Translations under genes and position numbers: made by a program
Notes under the pieces: generated by a model
Databases searched by the model: none
Seen by the model: the letters and a program-made list of their open reading frames with translations, nothing else
Told to the model about the DNA's origin: nothing
DNA from: Geminicoccaceae bacterium
GTDB taxonomy: Bacteria > Pseudomonadota > Alphaproteobacteria > Geminicoccales > Geminicoccaceae
Assembly: GCA_025999455.1 (NCBI GenBank)
Contig: AP024683.1
Coordinates: 1,123,501 to 1,187,500, forward strand
Direction of reading: 5' to 3'
Length of the DNA: 64,000 bases
Part shown: positions 10,598 to 17,900 of the stretch, in pieces
Numbering within the stretch: the stretch's first letter is position 1
How the letters are laid out: each line of letters opens with the position of its first letter

Positions 10598-10846
10598 TCA
10601 CGAAAGCCGCCAGATCCGTGCGCGAAGGAAGGTCACACCCTCGGAATCGCGGGCGTAGAAGAGGGTGAGCAGCATCCCGTCGCGGCGCGGCAGGGTTCGG
10701 GGAGAGGCCGGATCCTTCGCGGGCAGCCCGCGCGCTTTCTCGATCGGCGCCTCGATCCGCCAACTCCCGCACCGTTCGCTGCGGGGGTGGGGCGCTGCGC
10801 TCACGAAGCGCGACGGCGCCACGGTCTCGCGCGAGCCGAGGTCGCG
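10598..10846 (-). pseudogene. C-terminal remnant of an unknown protein, nearest copy of a tandem repeat
   Basis: On the minus strand this segment reads as a protein-like tail (SRFVSAAPHP, RIEAPIEKARGLPAKDP, TLPRRDGMLLTLFYARDSEG, VTFLRARIWRLS) ending at a stop at 10598. Copies 2 and 3 of the repeat upstream keep parts of it (RIEAPIEKASGLPAKDP, PRRDGTLLTA) but in other frames and with early stops. This looks like the 3' end of a gene that was triplicated and then decayed. No start, ribosome-binding site or family could be assigned. Confidence 0.3.
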
Positions 10847-11290
10847 GCGAAGGAAGGTCACGCCCCCGGATCCCAGGCGCAGGGGGCGGTGAGCAGGGTC
10901 CCGTCGCGGCGCGGCACCGTGCGGGGATGACCCGGATCCTTCGCGGGCAGCCCGCTCGCTTTCTCGATCGGCGCCTCGATCCGCCGGGGGCGCCCCTTTT
11001 CTCGTAGCCGTCGGGGAAACGCCGCGCTCACGAAGCGCGACGGCGCCACGGGTCTCCTGCTGGCCGAGGTCGAGCCGAAGGAAGGTCACGCCCCGGATCC
11101 CAGGCGCAGGCGGCGGTGAGCAGGGTCCCGTCGCGGCGCGGCAGCGTGCGGGGAGAGGCCGGATCCTTCGCGGGCAGCCCGCTCGCTTTCTCGATCGGCG
11201 CCTCGATCCGCTACCGCCCGCACTTTCGCTGCGGGGGTGGGGCGCCGCGCTCACGAAGCGCGACGGCGCCACGGTCTCGCGCAGGCCGAC
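10622..11290. repeat. Three tandem imperfect repeats of about 225, 228 and 216 bp
   Basis: Copies begin at 10622, 10847 and about 11075, each with GCGAAGGAAGGTCAC or a close variant. The best conserved core includes GTCCCGTCGCGGCGCGGCA, CGGATCCTTCGCGGGCAGCC, CTTTCTCGATCGGCGCCTCG and CTCACGAAGCGCGACGGCGC. Copy 1 is exactly 225 bp, or 75 codons. Differences are substitutions and short indels that break the minus-strand frame between copies. The array ends abruptly at about 11290 in unrelated sequence. It lies between the SBP56 operon and the double hydrolase gene. Confidence 0.85.
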
Positions 11291-11953
11291 GTCGGACTGT
11301 CCATCGCTTCGCCGACTCCATTGGCCCTGAAGTGGCTCTCGCCGTCCGACACGATCGGTCGAGCACGCGTCCGCCGCGGCGTGCCTCGGGGCACCGCAGC
11401 TCCCGGCGAGACGACGGCACATCGCGTAGCGTGCACGTCCCCACGGACCGAACGACCCGAGTGCCCGCTGGCGATCTCCGTTTCCGGCGCGCGGGTCCGC
11501 CTAGCGCCGGAGGGCCGCATTCGAACGGGCGCGCAGCTTCGCACGTCGGGACCTTTTCTGCGATGCCGCGGCCGTTTCCAAGCGCATGCAGGCGGCCGCG
11601 CGCTTCCGAGGGCGTTGGCCGGCTCTCGAACCGAACCGCGGCGGTGCCGACAGACTGGCTTGTCGGGCAGGGAGGACCAGTGGCGAGGTCTCCGTGTCTT
11701 TCGCTTCGGAGGCTGGGCTCCACCGTCCGCCCTCGCCACGGGCGAAAGCGAACCCGTGCGGGTGACCGCAGGCTCGCCTCGAGAAGGGTCTGCCTAACCT
11801 GCCGGAAGGGCGTTGTCGGCAATCGCGACCGCCGACGTTTGGCGTCGGCGCGGGGCGCGGATCGCGGCAAGCGGCGCCAACGATGTCTTGAACGGAGCCG
11901 CAAGTTGGTCGCGTCGCCGTGGCGCCTCCCAACGACACGGTGGCGGGCTCTCT
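11291..11953. other. Gene-poor stretch without recognisable coding sequence
   Basis: Open frames exist in both directions because of the high GC content, but none has a ribosome-binding site, a recognisable domain or sensible amino acid composition (long runs rich in R, A, P, S). Codon-position GC bias is weaker than in the neighbouring genes. I see no RNA gene, terminator or mobile element. It probably is decayed DNA next to the tandem repeats. Confidence 0.5.
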
Positions 11954-13852
11954 TCACCGCCCGCTCCAATCGTATGCTTCGGAGCGACGGGCGAGTGCGC
12001 TCGACCTCGGCGGTCCGGGCTGCTTGCGGTGCGCATCTTCGCCCGCGGGGGAGAGGATGGTGGCCGGTTCACGCGGCGGGCCCGGGCCGGTCGCGGCAGA
12101 CGGACGGACGGATTCCTTCAGCGGAGGGTCGGCAGCGGAGTTGCCCGGTCCTTCTCGCCGAAGGGCGTCGAGTTGGCGGCGGAGGAGCTCCGACAGGAGG
12201 CGGCGCGAAGCCGGGTCGCTGAAGGTGTGCCCCGCACCCTCGACGACCCGGACCTCGACCTTGCCGGCGAAGCGAGGCTCGCGTGCGAGACCGACCAGCC
12301 GATCACGCGCCGCGGAGCTGGGATCGTCCGCCCCGTAGAGGAAGAGCAGCCGAACCCCGCGGTCGACCAGCGCCCGGAGGCTCCGGCCCGGTGTCGAGAC
12401 GAGCGTCGCGAGCCGTCGCAGCGGCGCCGGCAGTGCCCCGGCGAGCTTCCCGCCGATCCGTTCGATGAGCACGCGCGCGGCGGGCAAGAGCTCGCCGCGA
12501 CCCGCGAGAGCCTCGGACCAGGACGTCGGTCGGACGAGGAGGGCCAGGAGCGTGCGGGTCGGGAGGAACACGACCGGGTGGAACGGCCGCCAGGCGAAGC
12601 GCGGCAAGTTGACGAGCACGGCGCCCACGATCCGCGGATCGCCCAGAGCGGCGTGGAAAGCCATGAACGCGCCCGAGCACACGCCCGTCGCGACCACCCG
12701 CCCGGCACCTCGGTCGGCCAGGAGGTCGAGGGCGGCCCGCACCTCGGCGAGGGCACCGCGTCGATAGATGTCGACGCCGTTCGCGCCCGGCTCGGCCCCG
12801 CTGTCGCCGAGCCCGCCGAGGTCGATCCTGAGGCTCCGGATCCCGTCTGCCGCGAGTGTGCGCGCGAGGTCGACCGCGACGCGCCCGGGTCCGCAGCGCG
12901 GGGTGGCGCCGGTGTTGAGGATCAGGAGCGCCGGTCGTTCCGCCGCCACCCGCGGCGGCGAAGGTTCGGTGAGCGTGCCGACGAGCCGTTTCTCCGGGCC
13001 GAACCGCAAGGTCCGCTCGACGAACCCCTCACTTACGAGCACGGCTTCCTTCGGCAGGGGCGCGAGTGCCACCGACGTGCGCCCGGCGGAGGGGGCTCCC
13101 TCGGCCACGAACCGGACGAGGCGGGCGAAGGCCTCCCGCGGCGGGGTCGCGAGCAGCGGGTCGCGCATCAACTCGCTCCAGCCGCGGAACGGCTCGGCCT
13201 CGAGCCGGGCGCCGGCCGCGACCCAGGCGGCGAGCGCACCGGCGAGCGGCGGACCGTCGGGCCGTGCGAACAGCAAGACCCGGGGCGCCGGCGGGCGCCG
13301 GGCCGCGAGCGGATCGAGCCGACCGAGTTCGGCGAGCGCCGCGGCGTCGAGGGCGAAGCCACCCGCCACGATCCCCTCCGCACCGACGGCCGAGCCGTGG
13401 TCGGTCGGCCCGCCGGGCGCGAGGCGTGCGAGCGCGCGCAACTCCCGCACGTAGGTCCGGCCGGAGGGCGGTGGTGCCAGGAGCGCGAGGCAGGCGACGC
13501 CGCTCGTTCGACCCCCCGCCTCGGCGGCGAGGAGGGCCCCGAGCCGGAGCCCGACGAAGGCGACCTCGCGGGCACCGCTCCGCTCGCGCAGGAGTCGCGC
13601 CGCCTCGAGCAGCGCCTCGATCCAGCGGCCCACGAGGGAGGTGCCGGGTGGTGGATCGAGCGCATCCCCGGTTCCCGGAAGGTCGAGCCGGAGGGTAGGC
13701 AATCCCGCGGCAGCGAGTGCGTCGGCGAGCTCCACGAAGCTGCGCCGCACGCACAGCGCCTCGAACCCCCAAGGCGGGCAGAGCACGACGCCGCGCCCGC
13801 CCGAGGCCGGGTGGAGCCAGCCGAGCCAATCGCGCGCCGCGAGCGGGATCAT
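11954..13852 (-). CDS. Fused double alpha/beta-hydrolase; second domain with Cys nucleophile
   Basis: This is a 632-residue protein with two alpha/beta-hydrolase domains in tandem. Domain 1 (about 15-250) has LPTLRLDLPGTGDA and the nucleophile elbow GLRLG (101-105), where Arg103 replaces the usual Ser; no catalytic His is evident, so it is probably inactive. Domain 2 (about 300-565) has SLRIDLGGLGDSG and elbow GVCSG (390-394), giving Cys392, with Asp509 (YGADD) and His542 (EGAGHTF) to complete a C-D-H triad. Similar separate hydrolases with GLRLGA and GxCSGA elbows occur in acyl-carrier-protein and exosortase gene clusters. Residues 569-632 are low complexity and may be a read-through tail. 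It lies downstream of, and on the same strand as, the carrier protein and its ligase. Confidence 0.75.
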   Translation of the reverse strand: MIPLAARDWLGWLHPASGGRGVVLCPPWGFEALCVRRSFVELADALAAAGLPTLRLDLPGTGDALDPPPGTSLVGRWIEALLEAARLLRERSGAREVAFVGLRLGALLAAEAGGRTSGVACLALLAPPPSGRTYVRELRALARLAPGGPTDHGSAVGAEGIVAGGFALDAAALAELGRLDPLAARRPPAPRVLLFARPDGPPLAGALAAWVAAGARLEAEPFRGWSELMRDPLLATPPREAFARLVRFVAEGAPSAGRTSVALAPLPKEAVLVSEGFVERTLRFGPEKRLVGTLTEPSPPRVAAERPALLILNTGATPRCGPGRVAVDLARTLAADGIRSLRIDLGGLGDSGAEPGANGVDIYRRGALAEVRAALDLLADRGAGRVVATGVCSGAFMAFHAALGDPRIVGAVLVNLPRFAWRPFHPVVFLPTRTLLALLVRPTSWSEALAGRGELLPAARVLIERIGGKLAGALPAPLRRLATLVSTPGRSLRALVDRGVRLLFLYGADDPSSAARDRLVGLAREPRFAGKVEVRVVEGAGHTFSDPASRRLLSELLRRQLDALRREGPGNSAADPPLKESVRPSAATGPGPPREPATILSPAGEDAHRKQPGPPRSSALARRSEAYDWSGR

Positions 13853-14122
13853 CCGAAGCCCGCCATCGGCATCGGTTGTCCGACGCCGGGCATCGCCCGA
13901 TCGGGCCTCGGCACGCGGCCCCGAGGCTCGGCGCCGGACGCGGCCGCCAAGGGCAGGAGCGTGCCCCGCCGGCGGCACGCTTCGGGCCGACGGATCCGTA
14001 TCGAGGCGGGATCGCGCACGCCGAGGACGGATGAAAAGTGCTTCGCCGTGCTGCCACAACCGCGCCGGCGACAGGCGCGGAGGGCTACGCCCGACCCCGA
14101 GAGCCGTTCGAGCGATCCCTCG
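13853..14122. other. Gene-poor spacer between the hydrolase gene and the 198-bp repeats
   Basis: No supported gene. Immediately before the hydrolase ATG (13852) the minus strand reads GATGGCGGGCTTCGG, only a weak ribosome-binding site. No terminator, promoter or RNA was recognised. Confidence 0.4.
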
Positions 14123-14716
14123 GTGGCTCCCGACCCGCTCGCGACGGGGCCGGTCGCCGCGCTCGACAGGAGCGGCGGCCGGACCGATCGACCGAACGGC
14201 CGTTCGCGGTCGAGCGCGGCGCGCACGCGTGCGAAAGGCTCCGTCGGACTGCCGCGCTCGCTCGCGCGGTCGGCGCGAAGCGTCGTGCCCGACGACGATA
14301 GGAGCTCCGACGTTCCCCTGATGGAGCCGAAGCCGCCCGCGACGGAGCCGGTCGCCGCGCCCGACCCGAGCGGCAGCCGGACCGATCGACGGAACAGTCT
14401 TTCGCGATCGAGGGCGGTGGGCTCGCACGTGAACGGCGCCGTCGGACAGCCGTGCTCGCGCGCGGCGTCGTTGCGGAGCGCCGTGCCCGACAATGATCGG
14501 AGCCCCGACCTCCCCCGGATGGAGCCGAACCCGCTCGCGACGGGGTCGGTCGCCGCGCCCGACACGAGCGGCAGCGTGACCGATCGACCGATCGGCCCTT
14601 CGCGGTCGAGGGCGGCGGCCTCGTAGGCGAATAGCTCTGTCGGACCGCTGGCAGCGCGTTGCCGGTCGGCACCCGGGGCTCCGCCCGGCAGCGAGAGAGG
14701 CCCGAGGGATCCGAAC
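14123..14716. repeat. Three tandem 198-bp repeats (third copy diverged)
   Basis: Copies start at 14123, 14321 and 14519, spaced exactly 198 bp (66 codons). Shared blocks include CCGCTCGCGACGGGG, GGTCGCCGCGCCCGAC, GACCGATCGAC, TTCGCGGTCGAG, CCGTCGGAC and CGCCGTGCCCGAC. The first two copies align end to end; the third is clear for about 125 bp and then drifts. The frame is open through copies 1-3 on the minus strand, but the translation has no recognisable fold and amino acid changes between copies are frequent. There is no similarity to the 225-bp repeats on the other side of the hydrolase gene. Confidence 0.85.
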
Positions 14717-15521
14717 CCTCTTGCGGCAGCGGGAACAGCGAGGTGTGAAGTACGGGGTGGCCGAACGGGTCGGCGGAACGATCCCGTGCGGTCGCGCGCG
14801 CCCGCGTCGCCTGCGAACGGGCCCGCCCGGCGGTCGGGTTCATGCCCGAGGTCGGTGCCGAGGGCCGTGGCCGCGCCCGGGACGTGCGGGTCGCAAGGGC
14901 GGTCCGGCAATCCTGCCGAGACGGAGAGCCTGGAAGCGATGCCAGCTCGGATATCGAGGGCGGGACCTACGAACACGGGACGGTCGGCGCGGTTCGGCAC
15001 ACGGTCGAAAAGGGGATCGGTCCTGCAATCGATGCCCCCGACGCTTCGGGCAGCGAAAGACCCCGGCTCGATGCAGCAGGCGCGGCGCGAACCGCGGTCG
15101 ATGAGGGCTGCCCTCGGGCGCACAGCTCCCGCGCCGCTCGGAACGGTGCGGCCCGCGGGCACGAGGCCGGATGACCGGTCCGGACCGCCGTCGAAGCGGG
15201 CTGCGCCGGGACGGGCGTTTCGCGTCCCGAGCCGAAGCCCCCGAGGTCCCGACCCGGCGCCACGGGCCCGGCCCGGATCGATGCCGAACCCTCCGCCGCA
15301 CCCGCCGTCGCGCGCCGAAGCCGCGATCTTCGGGCGGCACGGGGGAACCGGCCCGAGGACGTACTCGGCTTCCCCGCCGCGCGGAACGACGTCACGCTTG
15401 GACGTGAAGGCGGACGCCCCGGCTGCGCCCGTTCGAGCCCGGACCGCTCTCGCCACGCCGGGGTCGAGGTCCGAGCGCGCGTCGCCCGCGTTCGGCGAGT
15501 GCCGAGCCGGACCCACCGGGC
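14717..15521. other. Gene-poor stretch downstream of the carrier-protein ligase gene
   Basis: About 800 bp with open but unconvincing frames on both strands, arginine/proline/alanine-rich translations, no good start signals and no domain. It follows the stop of the amino acid:[carrier protein] ligase gene on the minus strand and runs into the 198-bp repeats. It may hold decayed remains of further genes of that operon. A T-arm-like sequence near 14703 was considered and rejected as a tRNA. Confidence 0.45.
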
Positions 15522-16538
15522 TCAGCTCCCGAGCAGCGCGCGGACCGCGCGCGGCCACCGCTCGGGTTCGAGCCCGTGGTGGCGCAACAACGCGAGGGCG
15601 AGCCGTTCGAGGCCGATTCCCACGCAGGCGCTGTGCGCCGGCTCGCCTCGGGCGGTGCGGAGCCCGAAGGTCCGGCCGAAACGGTCGCGGTGCCAGTTGA
15701 AGGAAAGGCAAGCGGTGGGTCCGCCCCCGTCGAGGATCGGGACCAGGAGCTCGAACTTCAGGCCCTGCTCCTTCTGGCTCGCCGCCATCATCCGACCGCC
15801 GCGGCCGAAGAACGGATCGTGCGCGGTGGTAATCGTGCACGGCAGCGCGAGCTCGTCGATCAGCCGGCGGCCACGTTCGAGCCAATCGTCCCGGAACGCC
15901 CGCACCGCCTCCGGCTCGCCGATCCGGACCTGCTCGCGCATGCGGAAGAATTGGAGCCGGGTCGGCTCGCGCGAAGGTTCGTGCCGGAAACACCAGGAGG
16001 CGACGTCGACCAGGGCCCCGCGCTCGGGCAGGGGGCCGCGGGCGGCGAGGGTCGGATAGACCGGGTAGCAAGCGGCCGGGAGGAGGGCCACGTCGGTCGG
16101 CCGTTGGCGTGTGGTCCAATCGCGGCCGGCTTCGAGGTCGGCCAAGAGGGCACGGTGCGCGCGCTCGTCGCCCGTGAAGGCGTGGACCGTGCCGGCCAGA
16201 TGCGGGAAGCCCTCGAGATAGCCGCTCCGCTCGAGCTCGCGCCGCGGCAAGGCCGGCGGGAAGCGCAGCCGCTCGGCCCCGTCTTCGGCGGTTCGGCGGC
16301 TCACGAACTCGTCGATCCGCTCGATCAGCGCCTCGAACCGGGCGCTCCGGCCGTACAGCCCGGGCACACCGGTCTCGAGGAGCAGGCCCGCTTCCGTCAA
16401 ATCCCGGAGGAAGTCGGAGGCCGGGCCGACCGTGGGCGCGGTCCCGGCACTCCCTTCACGGCCATCCGGCGAGAGACCCGACGGCGGAGGCGCTTCGGCG
16501 CCGACCGGCGGGCCGAGCCCGTCCACGGGCGCCGTCAT
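15522..16538 (-). CDS. Amino acid:[carrier protein] ligase (class II aaRS-like, atypical SerRS homolog)
   Basis: This 338-residue protein is a truncated class II aminoacyl-tRNA synthetase core without a tRNA-binding domain. Family work on Bradyrhizobium homologs showed that such enzymes activate Gly or Ala with ATP and load it on the phosphopantetheine of a carrier protein. Motif 2 is FRHEPSREPTRLQFFRMREQ, motif 3 GIGLERLALALLRHHG. The active-site zinc ligands are seen as Cys157 (PAACYP), Glu202 (FRMRE) and Cys305 (HSACVG), with spacings 45 and 103 as in that family. The first 40 residues are a Pro/Gly-rich extension. Its ATG overlaps the TGA of the carrier protein gene (ATGA), so the pair is translationally coupled. 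Confidence 0.92.
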   Translation of the reverse strand: MTAPVDGLGPPVGAEAPPPSGLSPDGREGSAGTAPTVGPASDFLRDLTEAGLLLETGVPGLYGRSARFEALIERIDEFVSRRTAEDGAERLRFPPALPRRELERSGYLEGFPHLAGTVHAFTGDERAHRALLADLEAGRDWTTRQRPTDVALLPAACYPVYPTLAARGPLPERGALVDVASWCFRHEPSREPTRLQFFRMREQVRIGEPEAVRAFRDDWLERGRRLIDELALPCTITTAHDPFFGRGGRMMAASQKEQGLKFELLVPILDGGGPTACLSFNWHRDRFGRTFGLRTARGEPAHSACVGIGLERLALALLRHHGLEPERWPRAVRALLGS

Positions 16539-16798
16539 GCGCTCACCTCCGCTGCCAAGAGTTCGCGCAGCGCCGTCGCGAGGGCTTCGATCGTGCGGAA
16601 GGTTTGCCGCGTCAGCAGCCGGTCGGGGAACTCGACGCCGAAGCGCTCCTCGAGCGCCAGCATCAGGTCGACGCTGCCGTGCGAGGTGAGCCCCGCCCGC
16701 CAGAGATCGTCGCGGTCGCCGATCGCGGCGACGTCCACCGCCAAGGAGCCCTCGCGCGCGAGCAGCGCACGGATCTCGCTCACGAGCTCGTCCGGCAC
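16535..16798 (-). CDS. Dedicated carrier protein for the amino acid ligase
   Basis: This is an 87-residue four-helix carrier protein. GTG at 16798 is chosen because GGAGG lies 8 bases upstream; a longer frame to 16870 adds only a low-complexity Arg-rich leader. In place of the usual DSL motif it has AGLTSHGSVDLMLALEE, with Ser39 at the phosphopantetheine position. The T-S-H form is typical of the carrier partners of amino acid:[carrier protein] ligases and unlike fatty acid ACP. The C-terminal half (FGVEFPDRLLTRQTF, IEALATALREL) fits helices 3 and 4. It sits first in an operon with the ligase. Confidence 0.92.
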   Translation of the reverse strand: MPDELVSEIRALLAREGSLAVDVAAIGDRDDLWRAGLTSHGSVDLMLALEERFGVEFPDRLLTRQTFRTIEALATALRELLAAEVSA

Positions 16799-16904: not shown

Positions 16905-17900
16905 TTAACGAAGCGTTACCGTCGCGGCGGGTCGGAGCGGCGGCAGACCGGCCTCGATCCTGGCCCGGTACGGCTCCAGGAAGGGTGGCAGGACGAGCCG
17001 TTCGCCGAGCGTCTCGACCGGCTCGTCGACCGTGAAGCCGGGCCCGTCGGTCGCGAGCTCGAACAGGACGCCGCCCGGCTCGCGGAAATAGAGCGAGCGG
17101 AACCAGTGGCGGTCGACCTCGCCCGAGTGGCGGACGCCGGCGGCGCCGAGCCGCTCCGCCCAGGCCGCGAGTGCGCCGCGATCGGCGACCCGGAACGCCA
17201 CGTGGTGCACCGCCCCGGCACCTTGCCGCGCCCCGGGCAGGCCGCGTTGGACGCGGAGCTGGAGCTCGGCGCCGCTCCCACCCGGGCCGCAGGCGAAGCG
17301 CCAGACCCACGCCTCGCCGGTTTCGGGGTCGGGGTCCGGGCCTTCGCCGAGGAACCGGAAGCCCAAGAGCTCGACGAGGAAGCGAGCGCTGGGCTCGGCC
17401 TCGGGGAGCGCCAGGACCACGGGGCCGAGGCCGCGGAGCTGCCGTTCGGCGGGCACGGGGCTGCGCACCCAGGGATGGGCGCGGCTCGGGCCCTCCTCGA
17501 CCGTGAGCAGAAGGCGCTGGCCCTCCGGATCTTCGAAGCGAAGCCCCGGCCGTCCGCCCGGCTCGCGGGTTCGGCGCGTGGCGATCCCGAAGCCGCGCAG
17601 CCACTCGTCCCACCAGGCGAGATCCGCCTCGCTCGCGACCGCGAGCCCCGTGCGCGCCACGCTGCGGTTGCCGCGCCGCTCGCTCGGCAGCGGCCAGACG
17701 AAGAAGGTCAGGTCGGTGCCGGGGCTGCCGACCGCGTCGGCGTAGAAGAGGTGCCAGGCCGAGACGTCGTCTTGGTTGACGGTCCGCTTGACGAGACGAA
17801 GGCCCAGGACTTCGGTGTAGAACCGATAGTTGCGTGCCGCGTCCGCGGCGATCGCGGTCAGGTGGTGGAACCCGGCGAGCTCCGGTGCCGGCGGCAGCAT
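16905..17900 (-). CDS. VOC-family ring-cleaving dioxygenase-like protein (PcpA/LinE/MhqO type)
   Basis: This is a 331-residue cytosolic protein with two glyoxalase/VOC modules (about 8-140 and 155-290). Likely iron ligands are His12/His13 (AGFHHLTAIA), His in GAVHHVAFRV and Glu in GGVLFELATDG, as in hydroquinone-type extradiol dioxygenases of the MhqO/PcpA group. FYTEVLGLRLVKRTVNQDD and WHLFYADAVGSPGTDLTFF are strong family blocks. GGGAGGA precedes the ATG at 17900. The gene follows a TRAP operon closely on the same strand and lies 106 bp before the carrier-protein operon, so it may be co-transcribed with either. The substrate is unknown. Confidence 0.9.
   Translation of the reverse strand: MLPPAPELAGFHHLTAIAADAARNYRFYTEVLGLRLVKRTVNQDDVSAWHLFYADAVGSPGTDLTFFVWPLPSERRGNRSVARTGLAVASEADLAWWDEWLRGFGIATRRTREPGGRPGLRFEDPEGQRLLLTVEEGPSRAHPWVRSPVPAERQLRGLGPVVLALPEAEPSARFLVELLGFRFLGEGPDPDPETGEAWVWRFACGPGGSGAELQLRVQRGLPGARQGAGAVHHVAFRVADRGALAAWAERLGAAGVRHSGEVDRHWFRSLYFREPGGVLFELATDGPGFTVDEPVETLGERLVLPPFLEPYRARIEAGLPPLRPAATVTLR

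Follow-up and report, generated by a model that had tools for sequence, protein, structure and literature searches.

What becomes of the amino acid that a seryl-tRNA-synthetase-like ligase places on a carrier protein, and does the double α/β hydrolase encoded downstream take part in its removal? Characterized relatives of this ligase activate glycine or alanine. In a 2022 review the role is called unknown (PMC9437257). We analyzed a 64-kb stretch of DNA, here termed the window, which corresponds to positions 1123501 to 1187500 of a single-contig genome of 3.76 Mb. As shown in Table 1, carrier protein, ligase, and double hydrolase are encoded on one strand, in the order also found in the cassette described below.

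Table 1. Features of the ligase locus in the window (window coordinates)
Feature	Position	Strand	Identification and remarks
Glyoxalase-fold gene	16905-17900	-	Precedes the carrier protein gene
Carrier protein, 87 aa	16535-16798	-	PF00550, NF005480; Ser39 codon 16682-16684 in GLTSHGS
ATGA overlap of carrier protein stop and ligase start	16535-16538	-	Read directly
Amino acid:[carrier protein] ligase, seryl-tRNA-synthetase-like, 338 aa	15522-16538	-	NF005479, alignment with 3mey; C157/E202/C305
Non-coding gap between ligase and hydrolase	13853-15521		1,669 bp; 198-bp tandem repeat at 14133-14645
Double α/β hydrolase, 632 aa	11954-13852	-	PF12146 + PF00561

The carrier protein gene starts with GTG and has a GGAGG sequence 7 bases upstream. 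Its product scored 34.6 bits against PF00550 and 98.4 bits against NF005480 (cutoff, 72), contains the phosphopantetheine serine, showed no deviation at 16 conserved positions, and is related to Atu2571 (2jq4) and to the carrier chain of 4h2w. The ligase scored 463 bits against NF005479 (cutoff, 357) over positions 17 to 315 of 318 and matched the solved Bll0957 structure (3mey) with 312 bits (E = 4e-92), the zinc region being aligned without gaps. Its zinc ligands, separated by 45 and 103 residues as in Bll0957, were invariant across 12 aligned ligases. Judged by these profile matches, the two proteins are members of the known NCBIfam families NF005480 and NF005479. The sequence-only reading had proposed a carrier protein with a T-S-H motif, coupled by ATGA to a ligase with an intact zinc triad in the spacing of the Bradyrhizobium enzymes, and these assignments were borne out. 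In the relatives G002 and G001, the junction of the two genes is GTGA at the same place. Of 128 positions with strong conservation, the window ligase deviated at 13 (the median being 1.6%), and its residues 1 to ~43 form a low-complexity N-terminal extension with a weak coding signal. Neither ligase relatives in viral contigs nor carrier protein relatives in phages were found.

The downstream gene had been described in the same reading as a hydrolase pair with a Cys nucleophile. Two hydrolase domains are present, but the nucleophile is confined to the second one, which holds C392, D510, and H542. This Cys-Asp-His triad was invariant in 35 of 35 aligned homologues, and the G-x-C-x-G motif around Cys392 was likewise kept in the alignment of 35 relatives. 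In the N-terminal domain the nucleophile site is occupied by R103 in the window and by Arg (23 sequences) or Gly (12 sequences) in the alignment, so that this domain looks like a pseudo-enzyme. An AlphaFold model of the protein had a mean pLDDT of 82, with values below 50 for residues 572 to 632, and a structure search with this model returned esterases, lipases, and thioesterases, i.e., only the general fold (Z of ~25, rmsd of ~3 over 216 residues). The C-terminal ~60 codons (11954-12129 for the last 58), disordered in the model, have a non-coding-like codon profile, as would follow from loss of the original stop codon. The N- and C-terminal domains resemble the exosortase A associated hydrolases 2 (TIGR03101) and 1 (TIGR03100), respectively, and relatives occur in exopolysaccharide loci with a carrier protein, an AMP ligase, and a PLP decarboxylase. 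In contrast to the exosortase A associated hydrolases, the window protein is a fusion of both halves, and it scored far below both curated cutoffs (77.9 bits against TIGR03100, cutoff 168; 74.5 bits against TIGR03101, cutoff 203).

The hydrolase had also been taken as the next gene on the strand after the ligase. Strand and order agree with this, but the two genes are separated by 1,669 bp of non-coding sequence with a 198-bp tandem repeat, and an operon is therefore not supported. The gap occupies the place that DUF1839 and GH2 genes have in most relatives. A minus-strand frame is open throughout it and lacks a coding signature, and the gaps of the window contained no remains of a dehydrogenase, DUF1839, or GH2 gene above shuffled controls. 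Rfam and tRNA scans gave no matches. Intergenic tandem arrays lie on either side of the hydrolase gene, at 10623-11294 (227 bp x 3) and at 14133-14645 (198 bp x 2.6); they are unrelated to each other and had no match in the relatives' loci examined.

A comparison of 80 ligase loci from named genomes revealed a six-gene cassette consisting of carrier protein, acyl-CoA dehydrogenase, ligase, DUF1839 protein, GH2 glycosidase, and double hydrolase, which recurs in alpha- and betaproteobacteria and in two Myxococcaceae MAGs. The first five genes are arranged in this order in nearly all of the loci. The double hydrolase gene was found within 10 kb of the ligase gene in 46 of the 80 loci, in 28 of these at its canonical place, and no hydrolase was found within this distance in the remaining 34, some of which are cut by contig ends. 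Annotated cassettes of Azospirillum and Mycetohabitans have all six genes in canonical order, those of Rhizobium and Shinella have the hydrolase gene turned or displaced, and the hydrolase was found on many plasmids that also bear the ligase. In Cupriavidus and Ralstonia, cassettes contain a second DUF1839 gene downstream of GH2 on the opposite strand (L038:23707-24660; L084, L087, L114, and L121).

We also searched a sample of 385 genomes of the class to which the window belongs, in which 9 genomes had a ligase over cutoff, 6 a full-length double hydrolase, and 4 a DUF1839 protein. All six hydrolase genomes had the ligase (hypergeometric P of 2e-11 by genome and 1.5e-7 by genus), and all four DUF1839 genomes had both ligase and hydrolase. 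One further genome, G176, has a partial hydrolase match near a contig start and no ligase; this may be a relative of the exopolysaccharide type. The conserved neighborhood that the sequence-only reading had named as a check is thus present in both data sets. The wide gap and the lack of support for an operon could suggest that unrelated genes became neighbors by chance; however, the linkage is conserved over many genera, which rules out this explanation and leaves it a negligible probability. The link between hydrolase and cassette exceeds chance, and the hydrolase is a genuine conserved partner.

The proposal of a new branch of aminoacylation did not hold as such, since most of the neighborhood was described in 2010. 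In a note in proof, Iyer and colleagues listed a carrier protein, a dehydrogenase, the conserved open reading frame Atu2574, a glycosidase, and lipopolysaccharide-related genes, and predicted Atu2574 to be the ligase that attaches an amino acid to a surface sugar (PMC2922099). We equate Atu2574 with DUF1839 by position. The window shares carrier protein and ligase with the cassette outlined there, whose relatives have the dehydrogenase, an Atu2574-type open reading frame, the glycosidase, and polysaccharide genes, but it lacks three members, and the main text of the 2010 paper makes no mention of the double hydrolase. In a 2023 survey, DUF1839 was grouped with papain-like enzymes and a function in the processing of glycans was suggested (PMC10318531). 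None of the article texts covered names the double hydrolase as a cassette member, and priority for this assignment is uncertain. Compared with the systems of the ligases Bll0957 and Atu2573 and the carrier protein Atu2571 (Mocibob 2010, 2013; 3mey, 4h2s, 4h2w, 2jq4), the window agrees in the family of the ligase, in the zinc triad with its spacing, and in the pairing with a carrier protein; it differs by the low-complexity extension of the ligase and by the ATGA coupling of ligase and carrier protein with no dehydrogenase.

Several observations connect the cassette with surface polysaccharides. Relatives of the hydrolase are also located in exopolysaccharide loci, two of which encode a separate carrier protein and an AMP-forming ligase, one of them together with a PLP decarboxylase. 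In Rhizobium sp. NLR16a a polysaccharide flippase domain (PF13440) is fused to the double hydrolase in a protein of 1103 aa (L162:5366-8677), encoded near ligase, DUF1839, and GH2. In Sphingomonas aquatilis (L127:2039-14103), carrier protein, dehydrogenase, ligase, and double hydrolase lie, as read from the protein sequences, within a putative exopolysaccharide locus, and no DUF1839 was found in this genome. A scan with 15 polysaccharide-protein queries and a radius of 10 kb detected at least one exopolysaccharide-type gene at 34 of the 80 ligase loci. With the same queries no polysaccharide gene was found in the control sequence, for which the 64-kb window was used together with five further loci; the sole match of the control scan, L032, was the G018 hydrolase locus itself. 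The window genome still has polysaccharide export genes.

The location of hydrolase genes in exopolysaccharide loci, the fusion with a flippase, and the proximity to GH2 as a glycan enzyme could mean that the hydrolase acts on the finished glycan, by de-esterification or trimming, instead of on the carrier protein. We consider this improbable, because the hydrolase is repeatedly found beside carrier proteins of a dedicated type and their loading enzymes, which are of two unrelated kinds. We rather assume that the ligase would activate a small amino acid with ATP and attach it, through the phosphopantetheine thiol, to the carrier protein. Where the cassette is complete, the acyl-CoA-dehydrogenase-like flavoenzyme may then alter the bound group, and its transfer to a sugar in the precursor of a surface polysaccharide would be the task of the papain-like DUF1839 protein, the Cys-nucleophile double hydrolase, or both. 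The conserved association with one Cys hydrolase and with polysaccharide loci, together with natural variants that keep the hydrolase and lack DUF1839 and GH2, leaves a few enzymes and one class of acceptor as candidates.

How the hydrolase would contribute can be pictured in two ways. It could be the missing transferase, with one dead domain and with Cys392 accepting the aminoacyl group from the carrier protein and passing it, ahead of export and independently of DUF1839, to a lipid-linked sugar, in which case the trio in the window would be a minimal set; we put this forward tentatively and regard it as rather unlikely. Alternatively, the hydrolase might serve in editing or off-loading, as a thioesterase releasing mischarged or stalled carrier protein, DUF1839 being the real transferase in full cassettes. 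Its fold is near those of esterases and thioesterases, and 34 of the 80 loci, some of them truncated at contig ends, lack a hydrolase gene within 10 kb, whereas a DUF1839 gene is present in nearly all. However, Sphingomonas and the window's genus retain the hydrolase with no intact DUF1839, which would be unexpected for an accessory editor, and the nucleophile is Cys instead of Ser. This alternative, too, is unlikely in our view.

The window does not contain the complete cassette, as the dehydrogenase, DUF1839, and GH2 are absent. DUF1839 and GH2 had no match in the whole window genome, and its best dehydrogenase match was a generic protein of 28% identity encoded away from the locus. With these three genes gone, the hydrolase is the sole candidate left at the locus for unloading the carrier protein. 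We favor, with a probability of about 0.5, the reading that the locus is a reduced, working copy of a conserved carrier-protein aminoacylation cassette linked to surface polysaccharide, in which carrier protein, ligase, and hydrolase were left after loss of the other members and the hydrolase remains a candidate for removal of the aminoacyl group. This reading is weakened by decay of the cassette in the genus, by the 13 departures of the ligase, by the distance and fast evolution of the hydrolase with its non-coding-like tail, by the absence from the window of any polysaccharide gene matching our queries, and by the published proposal of DUF1839, not the hydrolase, as transferase.

Within the genus, G002 kept carrier protein, ligase, and hydrolase. 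G001 contains a pseudogene cassette, in which the carrier protein is frameshifted through the Ser motif and the ligase start and the hydrolase are broken, G005 has an eroded cassette with remnants of all six genes, stop codons were reported in the hydrolase match of G004, and no cassette genes were found in G003. In an rpoB nucleotide tree G000 and G005 were sisters, which implies that the same three genes were lost repeatedly or that there was exchange within the genus; repeated loss is favored because the hydrolase identities match the species tree. NG86 estimates of dN/dS for the window versus G002 were 0.41 for the carrier protein, 0.38 for the ligase, and 0.53 to 0.59 for the hydrolase, the fastest evolving of the three (0.36 to 0.41 versus G004 and G005), compared with 0.08 to 0.28 for neighboring genes, but as dS is near saturation these values are only indications, here of purifying selection on the three retained genes.

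These data also bear on the alternative that the cassette is being lost genus-wide and that the window represents an early stage of a relic, with intact frames and a pathway that no longer works. The loss of three core genes without trace, the disrupted copies in related genomes, the unusual ligase substitutions, and dN/dS values above that of the adjoining TRAP gene (0.08) point in this direction, and the window cassette is possibly on its way out. On the other hand, dN/dS between the window and G002 is clearly below 1, all catalytic residues are retained, the carrier protein shows no deviations, and the coupled junction is common to G002. Sequence alone does not separate a minimal set that still works from a relic in decay; we regard the relic as a real possibility, though less probable than the reduced, working cassette.

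Two minor observations concern the surroundings of the locus. In the window, the cassette is separated from a MocR-type regulator gene by genes for the glyoxalase and a TRAP transporter, and these are absent from G005 (L030 7728-8552). Elsewhere in the window, two pairs of neighboring small genes (1421-2167/2359-3093 and 50973-51569/51575-52210) are similar and look like tandem duplicates.
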